Assembly: GCA_022828145.1 (NCBI GenBank) | Contig: JAJEJA010000073.1 | Location: forward strand, 124,001-188,000 | From: Candidatus Poribacteria bacterium | GTDB taxonomy: Bacteria; Poribacteria; WGA-4E; WGA-3G | Length of the DNA: 64,000 nucleotides | Reading direction: 5' to 3' | Shown: piece after piece, positions 10,787 to 63,184 of the stretch | Layout of the letters: every line of letters starts with the position of its first letter | Position numbering within the stretch: the first letter of the stretch is position 1 | The notes under the pieces: generated by a model | What the model was told of the DNA's origin: nothing | The model's database searches: none | What the model saw: the letters and a program-made list of their open reading frames with translations, nothing else | Position numbers and translations under genes: made by a program

Positions 10787-12739
10787 TTATTCTCCATAAA
10801 ACGCCTTATTTAAATCCTTATCTTCCTCACCAACACCAAAATCCGTATCCTCTATCTCGGAAAGGTTGACATAGAGTTGGTTTTTATCCAGCAGCTCTAC
10901 CAATAGATGTTTCTGTGCCTCAAGGTTATCAATAGCAATAAAATCGTCTACCGCTTCTTGCGGCATTTCTGCGTTGACATACCAGTTCAAGAATGAGTTT
11001 TCAGCGATCTCTTGCCAGAGTGCAACAAGTTCTTCGGAGGATTGTGCAGGTTGGATTTGGTCCATATAAACTTGGTTGAATTCCTTCATTTCGCATGAAA
11101 TGAAATCTCCGCTCAAAATTCCTTCTTGTGTGATAACTTTTTCCAGTCGCTCCTTGCAAACTTTTATATGTTCGTCTAATTGCTCTACGAGGATAAACTG
11201 ACGTTTGCCTCCATCCTCTTTGTTGAGTTCCAATACGGCATGCCCTGTAGTTCCCGAACCAGCGAAAAAGTCAAGGACAATGTCTCCAGGATCCGTTGTA
11301 ATTTTCACTATATCCACAACAGTATATAATGATTTTGGATACGAAAAAGATTTCTTACCAAGTATTTTTTCTAAAAGTCTTGTGCCATGCTGTGTTGCAT
11401 TATACCTTTTATCTGTCCAAGTAGTTTTGGGACGCAAGCCTTTGTATTCAGTTATTCTCCGCTTAAAAAAGATTTGAATGTGCTCTTCTTTATGCTTTTT
11501 AGCAACAATTTCGTTATCATCTATTTTCTGTTGTAGAGTTGAAGGTGAATTTGACCAAACCCACTCTGTGCCGTTTTCTATTGGAAAAACTTCATGGTAG
11601 TTTTCCTCTTTTGTCAAAGAAATATGTTTTAAGTCTTTAGAAATATAGATCGGATAAAACTGCTTGGGTCTGTCTTCTCGTCGTGCATTCCTTGTTTCCC
11701 CCTTCCGCATTAAATTCTCCAGTTTGTATCGTGATATTTCATCCTTTTCATTATAAGTCTTCTCTGTTTCTTTGGACATCTCAAAGAAGTTTATCTCTGC
11801 AAGTTCCTTATTTTTTGCATAAACCACCATAAATTCGTTTGATGTGGCGAAAAAATTGTTATTAGTCTTACCAGCAGGATGATGAACGATAGTTAGTACA
11901 GAAATACGGTTCTCTCTACCAAAAACTTCGTCGGCTAAAGTTCCCAAATATAAGAGTTCATAGTTATCTATAGAAATGGCAATAAACCCATCGTCTCTTA
12001 AAAATTGCTTTGCAATATCTAATCTGTTTTTCATAAAAGTTAGCCAGCTTGAATGATTGAAAGTGTTGTTATAGGTGAAAATATTCGCTTCCCCACCTGT
12101 ATTATACGGTGGGTCAATATAAATCAGTTTGACTTGTCCGCGGAATTGCTGTTTGAGGGTATGGAGTGCAATGAGATTATTACCTTTGACGATAAGGTTT
12201 TCTCGGATCGTGCCGTTGTCATCTCGTTTGATTTCGGCTACGTCTTCTTCACCTGACGCGGTGTGACGTTTCCAGTTGGTCAGCACTTTCGGATCAAACA
12301 TCCGATTGATTTCGTCTTGTGCAAGAATTTCGTTGAAGAATATCTCTTTGCGTTTCTCTTCTTCCTTTGTCTGTCCGCCTTCAAGCACACAATCTTTGTA
12401 CGGAAAGACAAGTGAGACTTCGCCGCGTTCACGCAGAAACTTACCGTCAATGTTCAAACCGATTTTGTTACGGAATTGTGTGTAGGAGTTGGCGAGGAAG
12501 TTTTTGGCAGTGATGTAGTCAATAAAGGTGTTGTAGTTGAAAATCCAATGTTCGTCAATTTCGTCAAAGAAGGTGGATTTTATGTCTGGGTCGGTCAGCA
12601 GTAACTCGATGAGGTTGTGGTCAAGTTTCCATGCGTGGTCTTTGACTGCTGCGGGGATGAGTTCGCCGGATTCGTCCGTAAAGTCGGGATTGGTTTTGAG
12701 GAGTGCGATTAGTTTTTCGTTGAATTTCTGTTTTGGCAT
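10787..12739 (-). CDS. Type III-like adenine-specific DNA methyltransferase (Mod)
   Basis: N6-adenine/N4-cytosine-type DNA methyltransferase, 650 aa. The catalytic DPPY motif (LIYIDPPYNTGG, residues 209-212) precedes the SAM-binding FAGSGTT motif (about 492-498). This order is that of beta-class amino-methyltransferases, which include the type III Mod subunits. The large insert between the motifs is the expected place for target recognition. The N-terminal 180 residues resemble the usual Mod leader domain. It heads a minus-strand operon with the 212-aa, 984-aa and Res genes. It should protect host DNA and give the Res complex its sequence specificity. There is no homopolymer tract here, unlike the second mod in this window. 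Confidence 0.9.
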   Translation of the reverse strand: MPKQKFNEKLIALLKTNPDFTDESGELIPAAVKDHAWKLDHNLIELLLTDPDIKSTFFDEIDEHWIFNYNTFIDYITAKNFLANSYTQFRNKIGLNIDGKFLRERGEVSLVFPYKDCVLEGGQTKEEEKRKEIFFNEILAQDEINRMFDPKVLTNWKRHTASGEEDVAEIKRDDNGTIRENLIVKGNNLIALHTLKQQFRGQVKLIYIDPPYNTGGEANIFTYNNTFNHSSWLTFMKNRLDIAKQFLRDDGFIAISIDNYELLYLGTLADEVFGRENRISVLTIVHHPAGKTNNNFFATSNEFMVVYAKNKELAEINFFEMSKETEKTYNEKDEISRYKLENLMRKGETRNARREDRPKQFYPIYISKDLKHISLTKEENYHEVFPIENGTEWVWSNSPSTLQQKIDDNEIVAKKHKEEHIQIFFKRRITEYKGLRPKTTWTDKRYNATQHGTRLLEKILGKKSFSYPKSLYTVVDIVKITTDPGDIVLDFFAGSGTTGHAVLELNKEDGGKRQFILVEQLDEHIKVCKERLEKVITQEGILSGDFISCEMKEFNQVYMDQIQPAQSSEELVALWQEIAENSFLNWYVNAEMPQEAVDDFIAIDNLEAQKHLLVELLDKNQLYVNLSEIEDTDFGVGEEDKDLNKAFYGE

Positions 12740-13126
12740 TAGGTAATTATTTCCAAGGGGTGTTGCTAAGGTTGAAGGTGTTCACGGTCTACTGCAGTAA
12801 GATATTCTGCTTACGAGAACTGTTTATTGATTCTCGAAGTTTAGATGTTTTTCATAAAGCGGATTGCTTATTGTTGTGTTCATTCCTTGTAATGTGTGTT
12901 CTAATTTCTAAATGGGTTTGTGAATTGATAGGCACTGTGGTTGGTCAGAAAAGCATCTAACTTCTTCACCGCAACCACGTAATTATATCATGCTCGTGTA
13001 AATAGCGCAAACGAAAGTCAACAATAAGATAACATGTGAAACTTGCAGATTCAGCGTTTTTATGGTAAGGTATAATTGTCCAGGAATGAAGATGTATACA
13101 TTCGAAATATGAAGGAGAAACGTAAT
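12740..13126. other. Intergenic region between Mod 1 and the TIR-like gene
   Basis: No convincing gene. The ORFs here lack ribosome-binding sites and have shadow-like composition. It holds a roughly 47-bp sequence (12981-13027) that recurs with few changes upstream of the DUF4268 gene (23034-23081). It also holds a TATAAT box at 13071-13076, about 50 bp before the TIR-like start, without a good -35 at standard spacing. Confidence 0.5.
12981..13027. repeat. Upstream shared sequence, copy 1
   Basis: Near-identical (one small indel, about six substitutions by eye) to 23034-23081. Each copy lies about 35-45 bp upstream of a TATAAT box and about 90-100 bp upstream of a plus-strand defence-type gene. 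It could be a shared regulatory site or the degraded end of a mobile or coding repeat. Confidence 0.5.
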
Positions 13127-13516
13127 ATGACAAAGGTAAAGGTTTTTTTGAGTTTTGAGTTTGACAAAGATAAAGAACTTCAACCCAATTTCTACGAGCA
13201 AGCAAAGGAACACTCATGCCATGAAATTGAAAATTATTCGCTGAAAGAGACAAGTCGACCGAACGATAATAGTTGGTTAAGGGAAGCACAGAAGCAGATT
13301 GCCTTATCGGATATCGTGATTGTAGTTTTAGGGCAAGATACACATAACGCACCCGGTGTTAAAAAGGAGGTGACAATCGCAAATAAGATGGACAAACCGA
13401 TGTTTCAGACTCGCCCGCAGAAAAGAACAAGCGGTGCTGTACCTAGTGCAGGAGATGAGATTACGTGGAACTGGAAACTTATTGATGCAAAGATTTCTGA
13501 GTGTTTGAAGAAATGA
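13127..13516 (+). CDS. TIR-like (MTH538/DUF1863-type) domain protein
   Basis: Single-domain flavodoxin/TIR-like protein, 129 aa, starting MTKVKVFLSFEFDKD. The start at 13127 has AGGAGA 8 bp upstream. The opening strand KVFLSFEF, the SWLREAQKQIALSDIVIVVLG segment (mid-protein strand after a Trp-containing helix) and the late APGVKKEVTIA segment follow the MTH538/ThsB-like pattern of short TIR domains. These proteins make nucleotide-derived signals in Thoeris-type anti-phage systems. No ThsA-type SLOG/SIR2 effector is adjacent. Instead a 137-aa membrane protein lies tail-to-tail 29 bp away, which could be the effector. Function in signalling is inference. Confidence 0.7.
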   Translation: MTKVKVFLSFEFDKDKELQPNFYEQAKEHSCHEIENYSLKETSRPNDNSWLREAQKQIALSDIVIVVLGQDTHNAPGVKKEVTIANKMDKPMFQTRPQKRTSGAVPSAGDEITWNWKLIDAKISECLKK

Positions 13517-57141: not shown

Positions 57142-58530
57142 ATGAGTTTGAACATTGTCGTCGTTGTTTCTGATACACTTCGAACAGCATATTTAAGTCC
57201 CTACGGTAACGATTGGGTTCACACACCAAATCTCGCAAAGTTCGCGAATGAAGGTGTCCGTTTTACCAATGCACACCCAGAGTGTTTACCCACAATACCG
57301 ACACGTCGCACCTTGCACACGGGGAGACGTATCTATCCTTTCAAAACATACAATCCTGTTCCGTGGGATAACGTCTATACGCCAGGATGGCAACCGATGT
57401 CTTCAGATGAACCTGCAATCGCTGAATCACTTGTCCAGAACGGATACCACACCGGTTTTTTTGCAGATGTACCACACTATTTTGTCCCAGGAATGAATTT
57501 CACACGCGGGTTTCGTCAATGGCAATTTGTACGAGGACAAGCAGAAGATAGATACCGCGGTGGTGCACACGCGGATCCGAGTCAAGTCGCCAGATACCGT
57601 GGTAATCCAGGACGAATCCGGTCCCATATTGTAAACGTACAACCGGAACGAGAAGAAGATAACTGGCCGACTGCAAGACTTTTCCGTGCCGCAATTGAAT
57701 TTGTTGAGCACAATCACAATAATACACCCTTTTACCTCTATGTAGACGGGTTCACACCCCACGAAACATGGGAAGCACCTATACATTACTACGACCTATA
57801 CGGTAGTAGAGAAGATAGAGAACCGATCTGTCTAAATCTACCTTACGGTTCACTTAAAGATGAGGAACTGGAAAACCGACTTCCAAGTGTCAAGGCAAAC
57901 TATGCCGGTTTGGTAACACTCGTTGATACGTGGTTCGGTAATTTAGTCGATACGATTGACCGACTCGGATTACGAGACAATACGTTGATTATGTTCCTAA
58001 GCGACCACGGCACAAACTTTGCCGAAAACCCAGACAAAGCCACAGGAAAACCTGCTACCTTCATGTATCCAGGAACAATGGATATACCATTGATTGTTAG
58101 ACACCCATCTGGTGTTAATGCCGGAACAACTTGTGATGAATTCGTCTATACACTTGATGTCCCCGCAACAGTTATCGCAGCAAGTGAAGTTGAGCCTGCT
58201 GGTGAAATACAAGGACAGAGTCTACTTCCACTTATTGAAGGCAAAGACGGATTTACATCACGGGAATATCTGACATGCCGCTACGTCAACTCAGTCTGGT
58301 ATAAAGATGCCAAGAGTTGGTATTTCTCAAGTGTTGATCTCAATAGCGGAACACGTCTGTTTGATCTGGAATCTGACCCGACCTGTCAACAGGATATAAC
58401 AGATAAGGGTGAAGACAGAATTGCACTTGCACATGAACGGATCTTAGCGGATGCCGATGGACATCTACCACAATATAAACGACAAGGAAGAACTGACGCA
58501 CTTGGTAGACCGCAATTCGCAGAGGAATAG
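57142..58530 (+). CDS. Sulfatase-like hydrolase (alkaline phosphatase superfamily), Thr at the nucleophile site
   Basis: 462 aa, no signal peptide. The fold is sulfatase-like: VVVSDTLRTAYLSPYG (metal Asp11), HTPNLAKFANEGVRFTNAH, the signature PTIPTRRTLHTG, FLSDHGTNF (metal Asp-His) and the C-terminal ESDPTCQQDI block. At the formylglycine position the sequence has Thr51 (T-I-P-T-R) instead of Cys or Ser. It therefore cannot form the FGly of true sulfatases. Thr is the nucleophile in NPP-type phosphodiesterases of the same superfamily. A phosphodiesterase or other esterase activity is thus possible. GGAGG precedes the start. Confidence 0.8.
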   Translation: MSLNIVVVVSDTLRTAYLSPYGNDWVHTPNLAKFANEGVRFTNAHPECLPTIPTRRTLHTGRRIYPFKTYNPVPWDNVYTPGWQPMSSDEPAIAESLVQNGYHTGFFADVPHYFVPGMNFTRGFRQWQFVRGQAEDRYRGGAHADPSQVARYRGNPGRIRSHIVNVQPEREEDNWPTARLFRAAIEFVEHNHNNTPFYLYVDGFTPHETWEAPIHYYDLYGSREDREPICLNLPYGSLKDEELENRLPSVKANYAGLVTLVDTWFGNLVDTIDRLGLRDNTLIMFLSDHGTNFAENPDKATGKPATFMYPGTMDIPLIVRHPSGVNAGTTCDEFVYTLDVPATVIAASEVEPAGEIQGQSLLPLIEGKDGFTSREYLTCRYVNSVWYKDAKSWYFSSVDLNSGTRLFDLESDPTCQQDITDKGEDRIALAHERILADADGHLPQYKRQGRTDALGRPQFAEE

Positions 58531-58536
58531 GCCCAT

Positions 58537-58591
58537 AGCGGTGTAACACACCGCTATTTCTCTTACTATGAAGCGCGGTGTAACACACCGC
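58537..58591. repeat. Two copies of an AGCGGTGTAACACACCGCT hairpin
   Basis: Copy 1 at 58537-58555 (8-bp stem AGCGGTGT-aac-ACACCGCT) and copy 2 with core at 58575-58591 follow the sulfatase-like stop. Each is followed by ATTTC. REP-like; could also terminate transcription. Confidence 0.7.
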
Positions 58592-58645
58592 TATTTCCTC
58601 ATAATACTTCCCTTAGATTGCAAAATCACTATTCGTCTGTATATT

Positions 58646-60499
58646 ATGGATTCACACCTCACACAATTAAGTCCTCATTTATACATACATCACAGCCATG
58701 TTAACACAGGTATCATTCGTGATGGTAACAAAGCACTGCTCATAGATGCAAGCGGAACGTCAATTCAGTCAACATTAACTGAATTGGGGATTACAGAAGT
58801 AGAGAGAATACTATACACACATCATCATCGCGACAACGTTGCGGGTTACACATTTCCTGAGAATGTTATCGTCGGTGTTCCGCAAGCTGAGGTACAATGG
58901 TTTAACGAAGTTGATACGTTCTGGAACGATCCGAAATATAGATGGCATCTCTACAACTGTCACCCTCATAATCTGATGTTAGGAGAATCCATCAGCGTTT
59001 CAGAAACTTACACTGATGGTATGCATATTGAATGGCTTGCAGCATCAATAAAGGTACTTGAAACACCTGGACATACAGATGGGAGTTTGACTTATGTTGT
59101 CGAAGTTGACGGTCAACGGTTCGCATTTATAGGAGACCTCATCTATGATGAAGGACAGATTTGGGAACTCTACAGTCTACAGAAAGGACAGCAGACGACT
59201 GATTATCACGGGTTTCTTGGTGCAAGAGATGAACTAAGGCAGAGTCTTGAGAAGGTGGGTGAGTCGTCTCCTAATGCAATTATACCAACCCACGGTGTTG
59301 TCATAAATAAACCGGATGAAGCAATAGTCAAACTATTTGATAGATTGGATTATTGCTACGATAAATATGTTTCTATCTCCGCACTGAGACACTATTTTCC
59401 TAAACTCTTTGAAGAATTTGATGGGTGTGAGAACCACATGCCAATTCGCGAAGGTAAGACACCCCCTGAATTCTTACGTCATATCGGAACAACATGGCTC
59501 ATCATATCTGAAACGAAGGAAGCCTTCGTCATGGACTGTGGTTCACCAAACGTCATAAAGCAGATTCAGCAGATGCAGCAAAACGACGAAATATCGGACG
59601 TTACACAGTTTTGGGTAACGCATTACCACGATGACCATGTCAATGCAATCCCTGAATTTCAAGAGACATTTCCATGTGAAACAATAACTGATGCTGTTGT
59701 CGCAAATGTCATCACGAACCCAACTGCCTACCGTCTCCCATGTATTTCACCTGCAGTTACACGTGTAGACAAGACGACAAAAGATGGCGATACTTGGCAA
59801 TGGAACGAATTCACAATGACAGCTTACCACTTTCCGGGACAGACCTATTACCACGGCGGATTACTCGTAGAAGGATGCGGGGTTCGTATGTTCTTCAGCG
59901 GAGATTCATTTACTATGGCTGGAATTGATGATTACTGTTCCGGTAATCGCAATCTGCTTGGAGAAGGTGTGGGATATGAAAAATGTCTACGTCTGATTAA
60001 GTCTTTACGACCAACCCATATATTTAATTGCCATGTGGATCAAGCATTTGATTTTACTGATGATGAAATTGACTTTATGTTAGATACATTAAATGAGAGA
60101 GAAAACTGCTTTACAGAACTCTTTCCTTGGGACCACGCTAACTACGGAATGGACGAACAATGGGTCCGATGCTACCCTTATGAACAGGAGATCAGACCTG
60201 GAGAAACAGCAGAACTTTCAGTTGCGTTTACGAACCATTCATTACAACATTGTGAAGCATCAGCACAACCGATCTTACCAGAATCGTGGGGTATTGAGAT
60301 TGAACCGAAGTCAACGACCATCACAGCGAAATCAGATGGATATATTTCGTTCTCTGTTCCAATTCCAGATGAGAAAACTATTAACAAACACAATACGTCT
60401 GAACGCATTGTGATACCGTTTGATATAACATACAATAACAGACATCTTGGACAATATCGAGAAGCTATTGTGTTGATCACTGTTAGTAAAAACTATTGA
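58646..60499 (+). CDS. Double metallo-beta-lactamase-fold protein with C-terminal beta domain
   Basis: 617 aa from the start MDSHLTQLSPHLYIHH (an upstream start would lie in the hairpin repeat). Two MBL folds follow each other. The first has THHHRDNVAGY, TPGHTDGSLTY and FIGDLIYDEG (residues ~60-170). The second has WVTHYHDDHVNAIPEF (about 325) and FSGDSFTMAG. Both keep most Zn ligands. The last ~110 residues are an Ig-like beta domain (PGETAELSVAFTNHS). Tandem MBL proteins of this shape are unusual. The substrate is unknown. Confidence 0.75.
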   Translation: MDSHLTQLSPHLYIHHSHVNTGIIRDGNKALLIDASGTSIQSTLTELGITEVERILYTHHHRDNVAGYTFPENVIVGVPQAEVQWFNEVDTFWNDPKYRWHLYNCHPHNLMLGESISVSETYTDGMHIEWLAASIKVLETPGHTDGSLTYVVEVDGQRFAFIGDLIYDEGQIWELYSLQKGQQTTDYHGFLGARDELRQSLEKVGESSPNAIIPTHGVVINKPDEAIVKLFDRLDYCYDKYVSISALRHYFPKLFEEFDGCENHMPIREGKTPPEFLRHIGTTWLIISETKEAFVMDCGSPNVIKQIQQMQQNDEISDVTQFWVTHYHDDHVNAIPEFQETFPCETITDAVVANVITNPTAYRLPCISPAVTRVDKTTKDGDTWQWNEFTMTAYHFPGQTYYHGGLLVEGCGVRMFFSGDSFTMAGIDDYCSGNRNLLGEGVGYEKCLRLIKSLRPTHIFNCHVDQAFDFTDDEIDFMLDTLNERENCFTELFPWDHANYGMDEQWVRCYPYEQEIRPGETAELSVAFTNHSLQHCEASAQPILPESWGIEIEPKSTTITAKSDGYISFSVPIPDEKTINKHNTSERIVIPFDITYNNRHLGQYREAIVLITVSKNY

Positions 60500-60525
60500 C
60501 ATATATCCACAAATTGAGATATAAT
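60496..60525 (+). promoter_or_regulatory. Strong sigma70-type promoter
   Basis: TTGACA (60496-60501), 18-bp spacer, TATAAT (60520-60525): both hexamers are perfect consensus. It drives the 73-aa gene at 60558 and probably the two paralogs behind it. Confidence 0.8.
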
Positions 60526-60557
60526 ATAAATATGCCATACTATGATAGGAGGCAATC

Positions 60558-60779
60558 ATGCAAGAATCACCTTTTTACGACCTTGTGATACAACGAGGGG
60601 CGCGCCAAAATAGCATTGAGAGTACATTGGCAACGCTCAAAGCACGTTTCCCAAATGATGATGTCGACCCCCTTATCTCCAGACTTGAAGCTATTGATGA
60701 CATCAATCAACTCAAGCAGGTCAACCTTAATGCTTCACTTGCAGACTCTTTTCTTGAATTCCATAAGACCTTACCCTAA
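60558..60779 (+). CDS. Small uncharacterised protein (73 aa)
   Basis: Starts after a consensus AGGAGGC ribosome-binding site, 32 bp after a perfect-consensus promoter. The acidic helical sequence (IQRGARQNSIESTLATLKARF, DDVDPLISRLEAIDDINQLKQ) has no TM or Cys and no family I recognise. Its strong expression signals and position before the two paralogs suggest a regulatory or partner role. Confidence 0.65.
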   Translation: MQESPFYDLVIQRGARQNSIESTLATLKARFPNDDVDPLISRLEAIDDINQLKQVNLNASLADSFLEFHKTLP

Positions 60780-60811
60780 TTCTCAAATTCAGTGATGTAG
60801 AAGAAACTGCA

Positions 60812-62005
60812 ATGGATAAACGTCCAAGAATAGCTGCAATAGCAACAATATACCACAAATATTCACATGCACAGCATATCGTTGACCGATTCTTAGAAGG
60901 CTACGGATGGAACAGCAGACACCACTATCCACCGATGGACCTTGTGTCACTCTATGTTGAACAAGTTAAAGAAAACGATATTAGTAAAGATCGGTTAGAA
61001 CGTTTCCCAACTATGAAGGGATACCCAACAAGTGCAGAAGCATTGACACTCGGTGGTGAAGAATTAGCAGTTGATGGTATCCTTCTCATCGGGGAACACG
61101 GAGAATACCCCTCAAACGAAAAAGGACAACGTTTATATCCACGTTATGAACATTTCAAGCAGATAGTTGAAGTGTTTAAACAGAGTGGACGTTCTGTTCC
61201 CGTTTTCAACGATAAACATCTCTCATGGAATTGGGAGTGGGCGCGTGAGATGTATGACATCTCTCAAGAGATGAACTTTCCATTTATGGCGGGTTCATCT
61301 CTTCCGGTTACTTGGAGAACACCTTCAATTGACATGCCGCTCGGTATTCCTGTATCAGAAGCTGTCTGTGTTGGCTATGGTGGTGTAGACAGTTACGATT
61401 TTCATGCTTTGGAAACATTGCAATGTATGGTAGAACGCCGTAAAGGCGGAGAATGCGGCGTAAAATGGCTGAAAGCATACCGTGGTGACACGTTTTGGAA
61501 TGCACACCACGCACAGGTTTGGTCTTGTGAACTCTTTGAGTCTGCACTCTGTCGTAGCCATACACTAACACCATCGCGTCCAGGATTTAACAATCCTTTC
61601 CCAACCTTAGACGAAATGAAGGAAATTGTCAAAGACCCAATTGCTTATCATTATGAACATCAAGATGGATTAAAATCTACGATGATTCTCATGAATGGCT
61701 TAGTTCAAGATTTCAATTTTGCAGCTTATATTGGAACTGACAGTGAGATACTCTCAACGCAGATGTATTTACCAATGCCTCCCGCAAGAACAACATTGGC
61801 AAACTTCTTCTCTCCACAGGTGAACAATATTGAGCAGATGTTTTTGACAGGCAAAGCGACCTATCCTGTTGAACGGACTCTATTGACAACAGGACTTGTA
61901 GCAGCAGGGGTTGATAGTCTGTTTGAAAATGGTTCAAAACAGGATACACCGCATTTAGACATATCCTATCAGTCTACTCCTGAATCTACATTCTGGAGAT
62001 CATAG
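60812..62005 (+). CDS. Uncharacterised protein, paralog A (397 aa)
   Basis: No assigned family. The N-terminus KRPRIAAIATIYHKYSHAQHIVDRFL begins like a Rossmann-type nucleotide- or coenzyme-binding strand-turn-helix. DGILLIGEHGEYPSNEKGQRLYPRYE is a prominent conserved stretch, followed by VPVFNDKHLSW, AGSSLPVTWR and HALETLQCMVERRKGGE. The pair with the next gene (gap 3 bp) shares these stretches. The family may act on sugars or cofactors, but nothing here proves it. Confidence 0.6.
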   Translation: MDKRPRIAAIATIYHKYSHAQHIVDRFLEGYGWNSRHHYPPMDLVSLYVEQVKENDISKDRLERFPTMKGYPTSAEALTLGGEELAVDGILLIGEHGEYPSNEKGQRLYPRYEHFKQIVEVFKQSGRSVPVFNDKHLSWNWEWAREMYDISQEMNFPFMAGSSLPVTWRTPSIDMPLGIPVSEAVCVGYGGVDSYDFHALETLQCMVERRKGGECGVKWLKAYRGDTFWNAHHAQVWSCELFESALCRSHTLTPSRPGFNNPFPTLDEMKEIVKDPIAYHYEHQDGLKSTMILMNGLVQDFNFAAYIGTDSEILSTQMYLPMPPARTTLANFFSPQVNNIEQMFLTGKATYPVERTLLTTGLVAAGVDSLFENGSKQDTPHLDISYQSTPESTFWRS

Positions 62006-62008
62006 TCA

Positions 62009-63184
62009 ATGAAAAGAATCGCAGTAATTACGACAATTTATCGTTACCTCTCACATGCGCAACATTTTGCGGATCGTTTTCTTGTCGGTTATCCAAGAGA
62101 AGGTAGATGGCACCGTCCTAATATGAAAGTTGTTTCGCTCTATGTTGATCAGAAACCAGAAGGTGATCAAAGTGAAGACCGCGCAAAAGAATTTGGGTTT
62201 TCTGTCTATCCAACGATTGCAGATGCACTCAGATGCGGCACCGACAAACTTGCAGTAGATGCTGTGCTATTGATCGGTGAACACGGTGATTATCCTATCA
62301 ACGAAATGAGCCAAGTGCTGTATCCAAGATATGACTTCTTTAAGGAGTGTGTCAAGGTATTTAAAGAGGATGCACGTGCTGTACCTATCTTTAACGACAA
62401 ACATCTATCCTACAGTTTTGATAAGGCAAAGGAGATGGTAGACGATGCACGCCGACTCGGTTTTGGGTTGCTTGCCGGTTCTTCTCTACCTGTTACATGG
62501 AGATTACCCGATGTTGACATACCCATAGACAGTGAACTGGAAGGTGCTGTTATGGTAGGTGTTGGCGGCTCCGATCCAATGGATTATCATGCATTGGAAG
62601 CAATGCAGTGTATGGTGGAACGTAGAAAGGGTGGCGAAACCGGCGTCGCTGCTGTACAATTGATAGATGGGGATCAAGTTTGGAAAGCAGGTGAGGAAGG
62701 TCGTTGGTCTATGGAACTCTTAGAAGCAGCTCTTTCACGGAGTGATACACCTTGCGGCTTAACAGATGAAGACGGAAGAACACAGAATATGATAGCAAAC
62801 GGAGAATTACAACGACTCGTCGAAAACCCAGCCGCCTATTTCATCAAATATAACGACGGATTTCAAGCAACACTCCTCATGCTGAACGGCGCAGTTCGAG
62901 ATTACTGTTTTGCTGCAAAACTGAAAAATGAAACAACTCTAATTTCAACGCAATTCTTCCTAACCCCAACACCGAATGTCACGTATTCTGCATGTTTAGT
63001 GTCAAAAATTGAAGAGCTATTTGAAACTGGGGTTGCTCCTTATCCCGCAGAACGTACGTTGTTAGTTAGTGGCACATTAGAAAGTTGTCTGAAGTCAAGA
63101 CATCAAGGGAATGTTAGATTGGAGACGCCACAACTCAAAGTAGAATACCGTGCTCCCACAGAATCACAGCATACACACATGTAA
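62009..63184 (+). CDS. Uncharacterised protein, paralog B (391 aa)
   Basis: Paralog of the preceding gene; GGAGA precedes the ATG. Shared segments are KRIAVITTIYRYLSHAQHFADRFL, AVLLIGEHGDYPINEMSQVLYPRYDFF, VPIFNDKHLSYS, LLAGSSLPVTWR and HALEAMQCMVERRKGGE. It is about as long as paralog A, so the two may form a heteromer or have split roles after duplication. Function unknown. Confidence 0.6.
   Translation: MKRIAVITTIYRYLSHAQHFADRFLVGYPREGRWHRPNMKVVSLYVDQKPEGDQSEDRAKEFGFSVYPTIADALRCGTDKLAVDAVLLIGEHGDYPINEMSQVLYPRYDFFKECVKVFKEDARAVPIFNDKHLSYSFDKAKEMVDDARRLGFGLLAGSSLPVTWRLPDVDIPIDSELEGAVMVGVGGSDPMDYHALEAMQCMVERRKGGETGVAAVQLIDGDQVWKAGEEGRWSMELLEAALSRSDTPCGLTDEDGRTQNMIANGELQRLVENPAAYFIKYNDGFQATLLMLNGAVRDYCFAAKLKNETTLISTQFFLTPTPNVTYSACLVSKIEELFETGVAPYPAERTLLVSGTLESCLKSRHQGNVRLETPQLKVEYRAPTESQHTHM

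Follow-up and report, generated by a model that had tools for sequence, protein, structure and literature searches.

A linked pair of genes in Poribacteria and, patchily, in other phyla encodes proteins with a predicted Gfo/Idh/MocA-like fold in which the cofactor loop appears rebuilt

The DNA examined in this study is a 64,000 nucleotide stretch (hereafter 'the window') of contig JAJEJA010000073.1 from a Candidatus Poribacteria bacterium (assembly GCA_022828145.1, positions 124,001 to 188,000 of the forward strand). Two neighboring genes near its 3' end, which we term A and B (Table 1), encode related proteins that are predicted to adopt the two-domain fold of the Gfo/Idh/MocA oxidoreductases, and that carry a conserved polar motif where this superfamily has a glycine-rich dinucleotide loop. 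We consider it probable (roughly 0.6) that A and B together make up a heteromeric enzyme, each contributing one type of subunit with this sugar/polyol oxidoreductase fold. The main interest of the locus is this old pair and its rebuilt cofactor loop, and not the perfect promoter and 73-residue open reading frame (p73) that lie upstream of it, on which an earlier, sequence-only reading of the same DNA had based the proposal of a notably strongly expressed operon.

A and B are identical at 182 of 390 positions (47%, E 4e-124), and the three stretches from which they had been recognized as paralogs (GEHGxYPxNE, FNDKHLS and AGSSLPVTWR) are indeed all present in both proteins. They had also been described as belonging to no named family, and the Pfam and NCBIfam libraries bear this out: no model recognized either protein above cut-off, and a comparison of 67 A and B proteins with Pfam gave a best E-value of 0.035. 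The Gfo/Idh/MocA profile PF01408 was found at 84 places in the same genome, none of them corresponding to A or B. A sequence search of the PDB returned nothing significant (best E 0.14), a second such search was empty, and among the papers listed by searches of the open-licence PMC literature no title or abstract start described the pair. When the window was compared with its closest relative (locus L001), dN/dS was 0.08 for A and 0.05 for B, and both genes are thus under purifying selection. Only 20 positions distinguish A from B in a fixed manner (at a threshold of at least 94%), so that, judged by sequence, neither has the appearance of a dead copy.

Structure prediction of both proteins had been suggested beforehand as a check, and AlphaFold2 models built from our own alignments were confident (A: pLDDT 89.6, pTM 0.90; B: pLDDT 92.7, pTM 0.92). 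Searches of the PDB with Foldseek at an E-value threshold of 1e-3 gave 301 matches for A and 321 for B, and the 50 matches listed for each are, by title, members of the Gfo/Idh/MocA superfamily, including Gal80 and biliverdin reductase. The A model matched GenD2 (6nor; E 4e-11, TMq 0.56) and the B model an inositol dehydrogenase (3cea; E 1e-12, TMq 0.56). In both models a Rossmann domain precedes a substrate-binding alpha/beta domain, and they superimpose on known structures with a TM score of ~0.56.

According to PMC5969746, Gfo/Idh/MocA proteins contain an EKP motif with a catalytic lysine, and inositol dehydrogenases use a K-D-H triad. Profile–profile alignment with hhalign to 20 canonical members of this superfamily encoded in the window's genome covered residues 29–169 (probability 75.7, P 2.4e-5) and placed an NDK sequence on the canonical EKP, with Lys135 at the position of the EKP lysine and the E and P replaced. 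Twelve residues are invariant in all 67 aligned proteins (H19, Q21, H22, D25, R26, E95, H96, D134, K135, D193, D196 and H198), among which K135, H198 and the nearby D193 or D196 are candidates for a K-D-H triad, the register of the Asp being set by eye. The loop that joins strand 1 to helix A appears to have been rebuilt. All 20 canonical proteins carry the pattern GxGxx[GASC] within their first 40 residues, while a glycine of any kind was present in this loop in only 3 of 35 A rows and 0 of 32 B rows. The loop of A and B instead consists of T-x-Y-x3-S, the first part of a nearly invariant T-x-Y-x3-S-H-x-Q-H motif that occupies the place of the glycine-rich dinucleotide loop. In an alignment of a natural A–B fusion, the consensus and the invariant columns fall on the B half only. 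We file A and B as divergent relatives of Gfo/Idh/MocA on the basis of their predicted fold, and keep them out of PF01408 because neither the family profile nor the glycine loop was found in them.

The two genes travel together. A search with B as query identified 141 relatives, of which the best 80 (68–95% identical to B) were retained as loci for comparison; these comprise 47 Poribacteria records and 33 others, from Acidobacteriota, Chloroflexota, Latescibacterota, Gemmatimonadota, Planctomycetota and unassigned sources. In every one of the 80, B is preceded by an A-type gene (66–94% identical to A where complete; the gene is incomplete in L070, with 64% identity over the fragment, and partial in L047). 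The two genes are separate and no more than 100 bp apart in 60 loci, some of them overlapping, and separated by more than 100 bp (up to 2.2 kb) in 17; they are fused in one reading frame in two Chloroflexota loci (L049 and L055), and the last, L070, is cut short so that its arrangement is not resolved. Eight of the 17 widely spaced pairs, all from Poribacteria, carry an inserted gene of 208 codons between A and B (as in L010, 7294–7920), whose product has no Pfam match and by eye resembles PD-(D/E)XK nucleases. A match to the family was present in 56 of 59 genomes from the same class or nearer, and a neighboring pair in 48 (scored by eye, and including G055, where A is cut by a contig end). 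In the remainder, A lies at the edge of a short contig (G025), A- and B-type genes lie on different contigs (G049), an A-type gene was found in an incomplete genome (G057 and G058; a second match in G057 was unclassified), or the matches score as a third, C-type form (G037, G048 and G051); G050, G052 and G054 had no match to the A/B family. The pair is therefore usual in the sampled relatives within Poribacteria and patchy elsewhere. The only relative found on a plasmid (Arthrobacter pHiyo8-1, 12001–13224; ~30% identity) forms part of a larger hypothetical protein, ~7–9 kb from annotated phosphonate genes.

In a tree of 101 proteins (including the fusion from locus L194 and leaving aside those from L049 and L055), A-type and B-type proteins form separate clades with support values of 100/99 and 100/100, respectively. 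Three additional linked pairs (L195, L196 and L197) and the L194 fusion each comprise one A-type and one B-type member. The L194 fusion, an 850-residue frame that brings the number of genomes with A–B fusions to three, is placed among unfused pairs and not within the main pair clade. Its fusion is therefore probably independent of the Chloroflexota ones, so that fusion would have arisen at least twice. Thirteen C-type proteins form a further clade (100/99). These are encoded by stand-alone genes (one in the same genome as the window, at L158:7493–8668 on the minus strand, contig C51, the others in L159–L170), which are co-directional with an argB-like kinase gene (labeled by eye) in 8 of the 13 loci; in three further loci they adjoin genes for a Zn-alcohol dehydrogenase and for MFS-like and mandelate-racemase-like proteins. 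A search of viral contigs with a C-type query gave no match. A strongly diverged relative (L202:3889–4962, plus strand; 45–63 bits to the A and B models) directly follows an A-type gene, and is possibly a diverged B partner.

Our preferred explanation is that an old duplication would have produced A and B, which were then mostly kept together across phyla and were sometimes fused. Their linkage and fusion suggest that the two proteins bind each other. Lys135, at the place of the EKP lysine, and His198 would be the residues that work on a substrate resembling a sugar, polyol or lactone, and any nucleotide might be held in an unusual, perhaps permanent, way. N-termini resembling twin-arginine (Tat) signals were noted by eye in several relatives (L194, L202, L208, L209, L211 and L212) and would fit a folded, cofactor-loaded protein; the twin-arginine pattern was found in 0 of 80 A and 0 of 80 B proteins within the first 40 residues, as translated from the start of the match. 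A stronger form of this proposal, which we put forward only tentatively, is that A and B form an obligate heteromer in which the usual NAD(P) loop has been abandoned, and which relies on a permanently bound or different cofactor or acts as a hydride-shuttling pair, with one subunit oxidizing and the other reducing.

The most serious competing explanation is that A and B each form a homomeric NAD(P)-dependent dehydrogenase, catalyze successive steps of a pathway, are linked solely for co-regulation and still bind a dinucleotide despite the altered loop. Genes for enzymes of one pathway are usually linked, and the widely spaced pairs, including those interrupted by another gene, would be compatible with this arrangement, as would the retention of the conserved residues in both A and B and the existence of single forms. 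In addition, the consensus following strand 2 is YVDQ, and proteins that bind the ribose of NAD carry an acidic residue after that strand. The fusions in three genomes argue against independent enzymes, however, as does the observation that every linked pair placed on the tree consists of one A and one B, and we regard this explanation as doubtful. It is less likely still that the pair is a non-catalytic sugar sensor or scaffold that has retained an oxidoreductase fold, as Gal80 has. Two Gal80 structures (3bts and 2nvw) are among the Foldseek matches of A, and loss of the standard cofactor loop would also fit such a protein; the invariant polar residues in both subunits and the Tat-like signals of relatives fit an enzyme better, however, and no regulator was a consistent neighbor in the loci examined.

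Several observations weigh against the proposal of a heteromeric enzyme with a rebuilt loop. A TM score of ~0.56, with a root-mean-square deviation of ~7 Å, leaves room for a different arrangement of domains. The hhalign comparison aligned a GYGWNS sequence of A with the canonical glycine motif, and GxGxx[GASC] matches at that site in 77 of 80 A proteins. We discount this sequence as a glycine motif since in the model its GYG comes behind helix A and not behind strand 1, and since B lacks the pattern (0 of 80). Genomes G203 and G229 contain a single form that scores almost equally with the A and B models (531 and 522 bits for L212; 552 and 521 bits for L211), which may represent the unduplicated state; the C-type paralog in the window's own genome stands alone, and G053 has only a B-type gene. 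Any match at all was found in just 5 of 99, 6 of 80 and 2 of 81 genomes sampled from the phyla of G067, G061 and G065, respectively, with the genome at the center of each sample included. The 80 loci, as the best of those found with a B query, are biased toward close pairs. Finally, no neighboring gene is widely conserved outside Poribacteria, where the commonest, an M19 dipeptidase, occurs in 6 of 33 loci.

The promoter that first drew attention to this region is, as described, an exact match to consensus at both hexamers (12 of 12 positions, with a spacer of 18). The TGA stop codon of the preceding gene (60497–60499) falls within its −35 box, and it is the only perfect TTGACA/TATAAT pair with a spacer of 16–18 in the window; 7 of 100 shuffled versions of the window contained one (mean 0.07). 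The genome (5.06 Mb, both strands) contains 118 such sites, against 4 for a reversed control pattern. Forty sites were sampled from the 100 listed, some with flanks cut by contig ends: two precede an Rpn/YhgA-like frame, 20 precede another frame of at least 100 codons within 150 nt, and eight are followed by no frame of at least 40 codons. The idea that perfect promoters in this genome belong mainly to Rpn-like genes was rejected on the basis of that sample. In the 44 other Poribacteria loci with sufficient flanking sequence, none of the 400 bp regions upstream of A contains a perfect promoter; sites matching at least 10 of 12 positions were found in six and an 11 of 12 site in one (median shuffle fraction 0.71). 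In L001, a gap of 57 nt without such a promoter or p73 separates the upstream gene from A, and in a DNA alignment with four relatives similarity declines (by eye) within the last codons of the upstream gene.

p73 itself (60558–60779) was preceded, as claimed, by an excellent ribosome-binding site, AGGAGG (60547–60552), 5 nt upstream of its ATG; that sequence, however, lies within a match to protein-coding stretches in longer paralogs. Neither Pfam nor NCBIfam recognizes p73 above cut-off, and the possibility that it is a conserved member of the operon was rejected, as a tblastn search at an E-value of 1e-3 found it in 0 of 80 related loci. Its 14 matches in the window's genome are p73 itself and 13 segments of longer open frames (89–374 residues), including the C-terminal tail of paralog L093 (E 2e-8), and the stretch carrying AGGAGG and the ATG matches longer paralogs over 21–51 nt at 80–90% nucleotide identity. 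The promoter region and the codons just after it align across 60 nt, at 77% identity, with the corresponding promoter and first codons in L084 and L218 (the latter alignment spanning 60489–60546), and the paralogs begin with MPQEYD, MTQYDE or MEHYDE shortly downstream of their own promoters. When the 14 paralog loci were scanned for promoters matching at least 11 of 12 positions (a scan made without a shuffled control), 12 of 12 sites were found in L087 and L093 and 11 of 12 sites in L083, L088, L089, L091 and L217, 5–37 nt from an ATG; L084, apparently a second shortened copy, has a promoter of at least 11 of 12 just before its ATG, L094 has one without an ATG, and L082, L085, L086, L090 (cut by a contig end) and L092 have none.

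Because the paralogs share the promoter and start as well as the tail with its AGGAGG stretch, we read the window segment as the promoter, first five codons and 3' tail of an Rpn/YhgA-like gene from which the middle has been deleted. Compared with that family of recombination-promoting nucleases, the segment resembles the genomic paralogs in promoter, start and C-terminal tail and differs in having no core: the relic start and tail are all that was found. Among the paralogs, L092 alone can be assigned firmly to the family (PF04754, E 1e-28), the assignment being weak or absent for L090 and L093. The same arrangement, in which a perfect promoter is closely followed by an Rpn/YhgA-like C-terminal tail, recurs in this genome at L084 and L236 (contigs C85 and C26) as a pattern of internal deletion. 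The promoter and p73 thus look like a decayed insertion of an unrelated mobile-type gene that did not originally belong to the A/B operon, and they caution that such genes can yield perfect promoter and Shine-Dalgarno signals. It is accordingly very improbable that p73, A and B form a strongly expressed operon with p73 as a functional small protein, despite the perfect promoter, good Shine-Dalgarno sequence and co-directional genes, given 118 equally perfect sites in the genome, the match of promoter and tail to Rpn/YhgA-like paralogs, and the lack of p73 in all 80 loci (L001 included) and of a perfect promoter in the 44. The Shine-Dalgarno-like sequences of A and B are, by eye, weaker than that of p73; the promoter points in the same direction as both genes and could still transcribe them.

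Genes frequently found upstream of the pair in the 47 Poribacteria loci, counted as gene clusters within the fetched flanks, encode a metallo-beta-lactamase-fold hydrolase (30 loci), a PhyH dioxygenase (29) and a glyoxalase-fold protein (27), and more rarely a sulfatase-fold protein (11) or a Dabb protein (4). Neighbors vary across loci and include PhyH, SDR/epimerase, creatininase, amidohydrolase, M19 dipeptidase and GH4 proteins; this setting is suggestive of small-molecule or sugar metabolism and does not fix the substrate. A shared lactonase-like partner is unproven, as the upstream metallo-beta-lactamase-fold protein and the one encoded downstream of the L049 pair are only distantly similar (best local match E 0.015). 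The sulfatase-fold protein of the window (57142–58530, plus strand) has a Thr in its nucleophile region, PTIPTRR. Sulfatases have Cys or Ser at the nucleophile position, so instead of a formylglycine sulfatase the protein may be a hydrolase of the phosphodiesterase or phosphonate type.

Table 1. Features of the A/B locus (positions in the window)
Feature	Position	Strand	Comment
Metallo-beta-lactamase-fold hydrolase, apparently two such domains	58568..60499	+	Pfam Lactamase_B, 3 stretches
Perfect sigma-70-type promoter	60496..60525	+	TTGACA-N18-TATAAT, 12/12; read as promoter of relic Rpn/YhgA-like gene
Relic start of Rpn/YhgA-like gene, M-P-Y-Y-D	60532..60546	+	joined to 3' tail by apparent internal deletion
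3' tail of Rpn/YhgA-like gene, with p73	60545..60779	+	AGGAGG inside match to paralog coding sequence
Gene A, 397 residues	60812..62005	+	A-type; predicted Gfo/Idh/MocA-like fold
Gene B, 391 residues	62009..63184	+	B-type; predicted Gfo/Idh/MocA-like fold

Among known systems, the NAD-dependent sulfoquinovosidases (8qc6 and 8zn9) share the superfamily fold and are among the 50 listed matches, but are only ~10% identical to A and B, and a shared activity is not indicated. Glucose-fructose oxidoreductase (GFOR) also has the superfamily fold seen in A, and is exported through the Tat pathway with tightly bound NADP. The Tat-like signals of some A/B relatives may parallel that export, while the 80 A and 80 B proteins differ from GFOR in having no such pattern near their N-termini and no canonical glycine loop. 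With Gfo/Idh/MocA as a whole (PF01408; for example inositol dehydrogenase 3nt2 and 3cea, GenD2 6nor and GFOR 1h6d), A and B share the two-domain fold by Foldseek, the lysine that hhalign places at the EKP position and, by eye, a conserved His near the catalytic D-x3-H; they differ in that no glycine-rich loop joins strand 1 to helix A, in having NDK-H in place of EKP, in being only 9–14% identical to the listed structures, and in being missed by the family profile. They also occur as a pair or an A–B fusion, whereas the reported structures of the family are homo-dimers or homo-tetramers, according to PMC5969746. The pair is ~70% identical between phyla and is kept as a unit in most of the sampled Poribacteria relatives, yet the Pfam and NCBIfam libraries searched contain no model of it. 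Were it a heteromer that lacks the usual dinucleotide loop, it would alter assumptions about a large sugar-oxidoreductase fold, and if that heteromer were obligate and the loop truly given up, the pair would represent a functional class that is new to this much-studied fold, present in 48 of 59 sampled genomes of the class.

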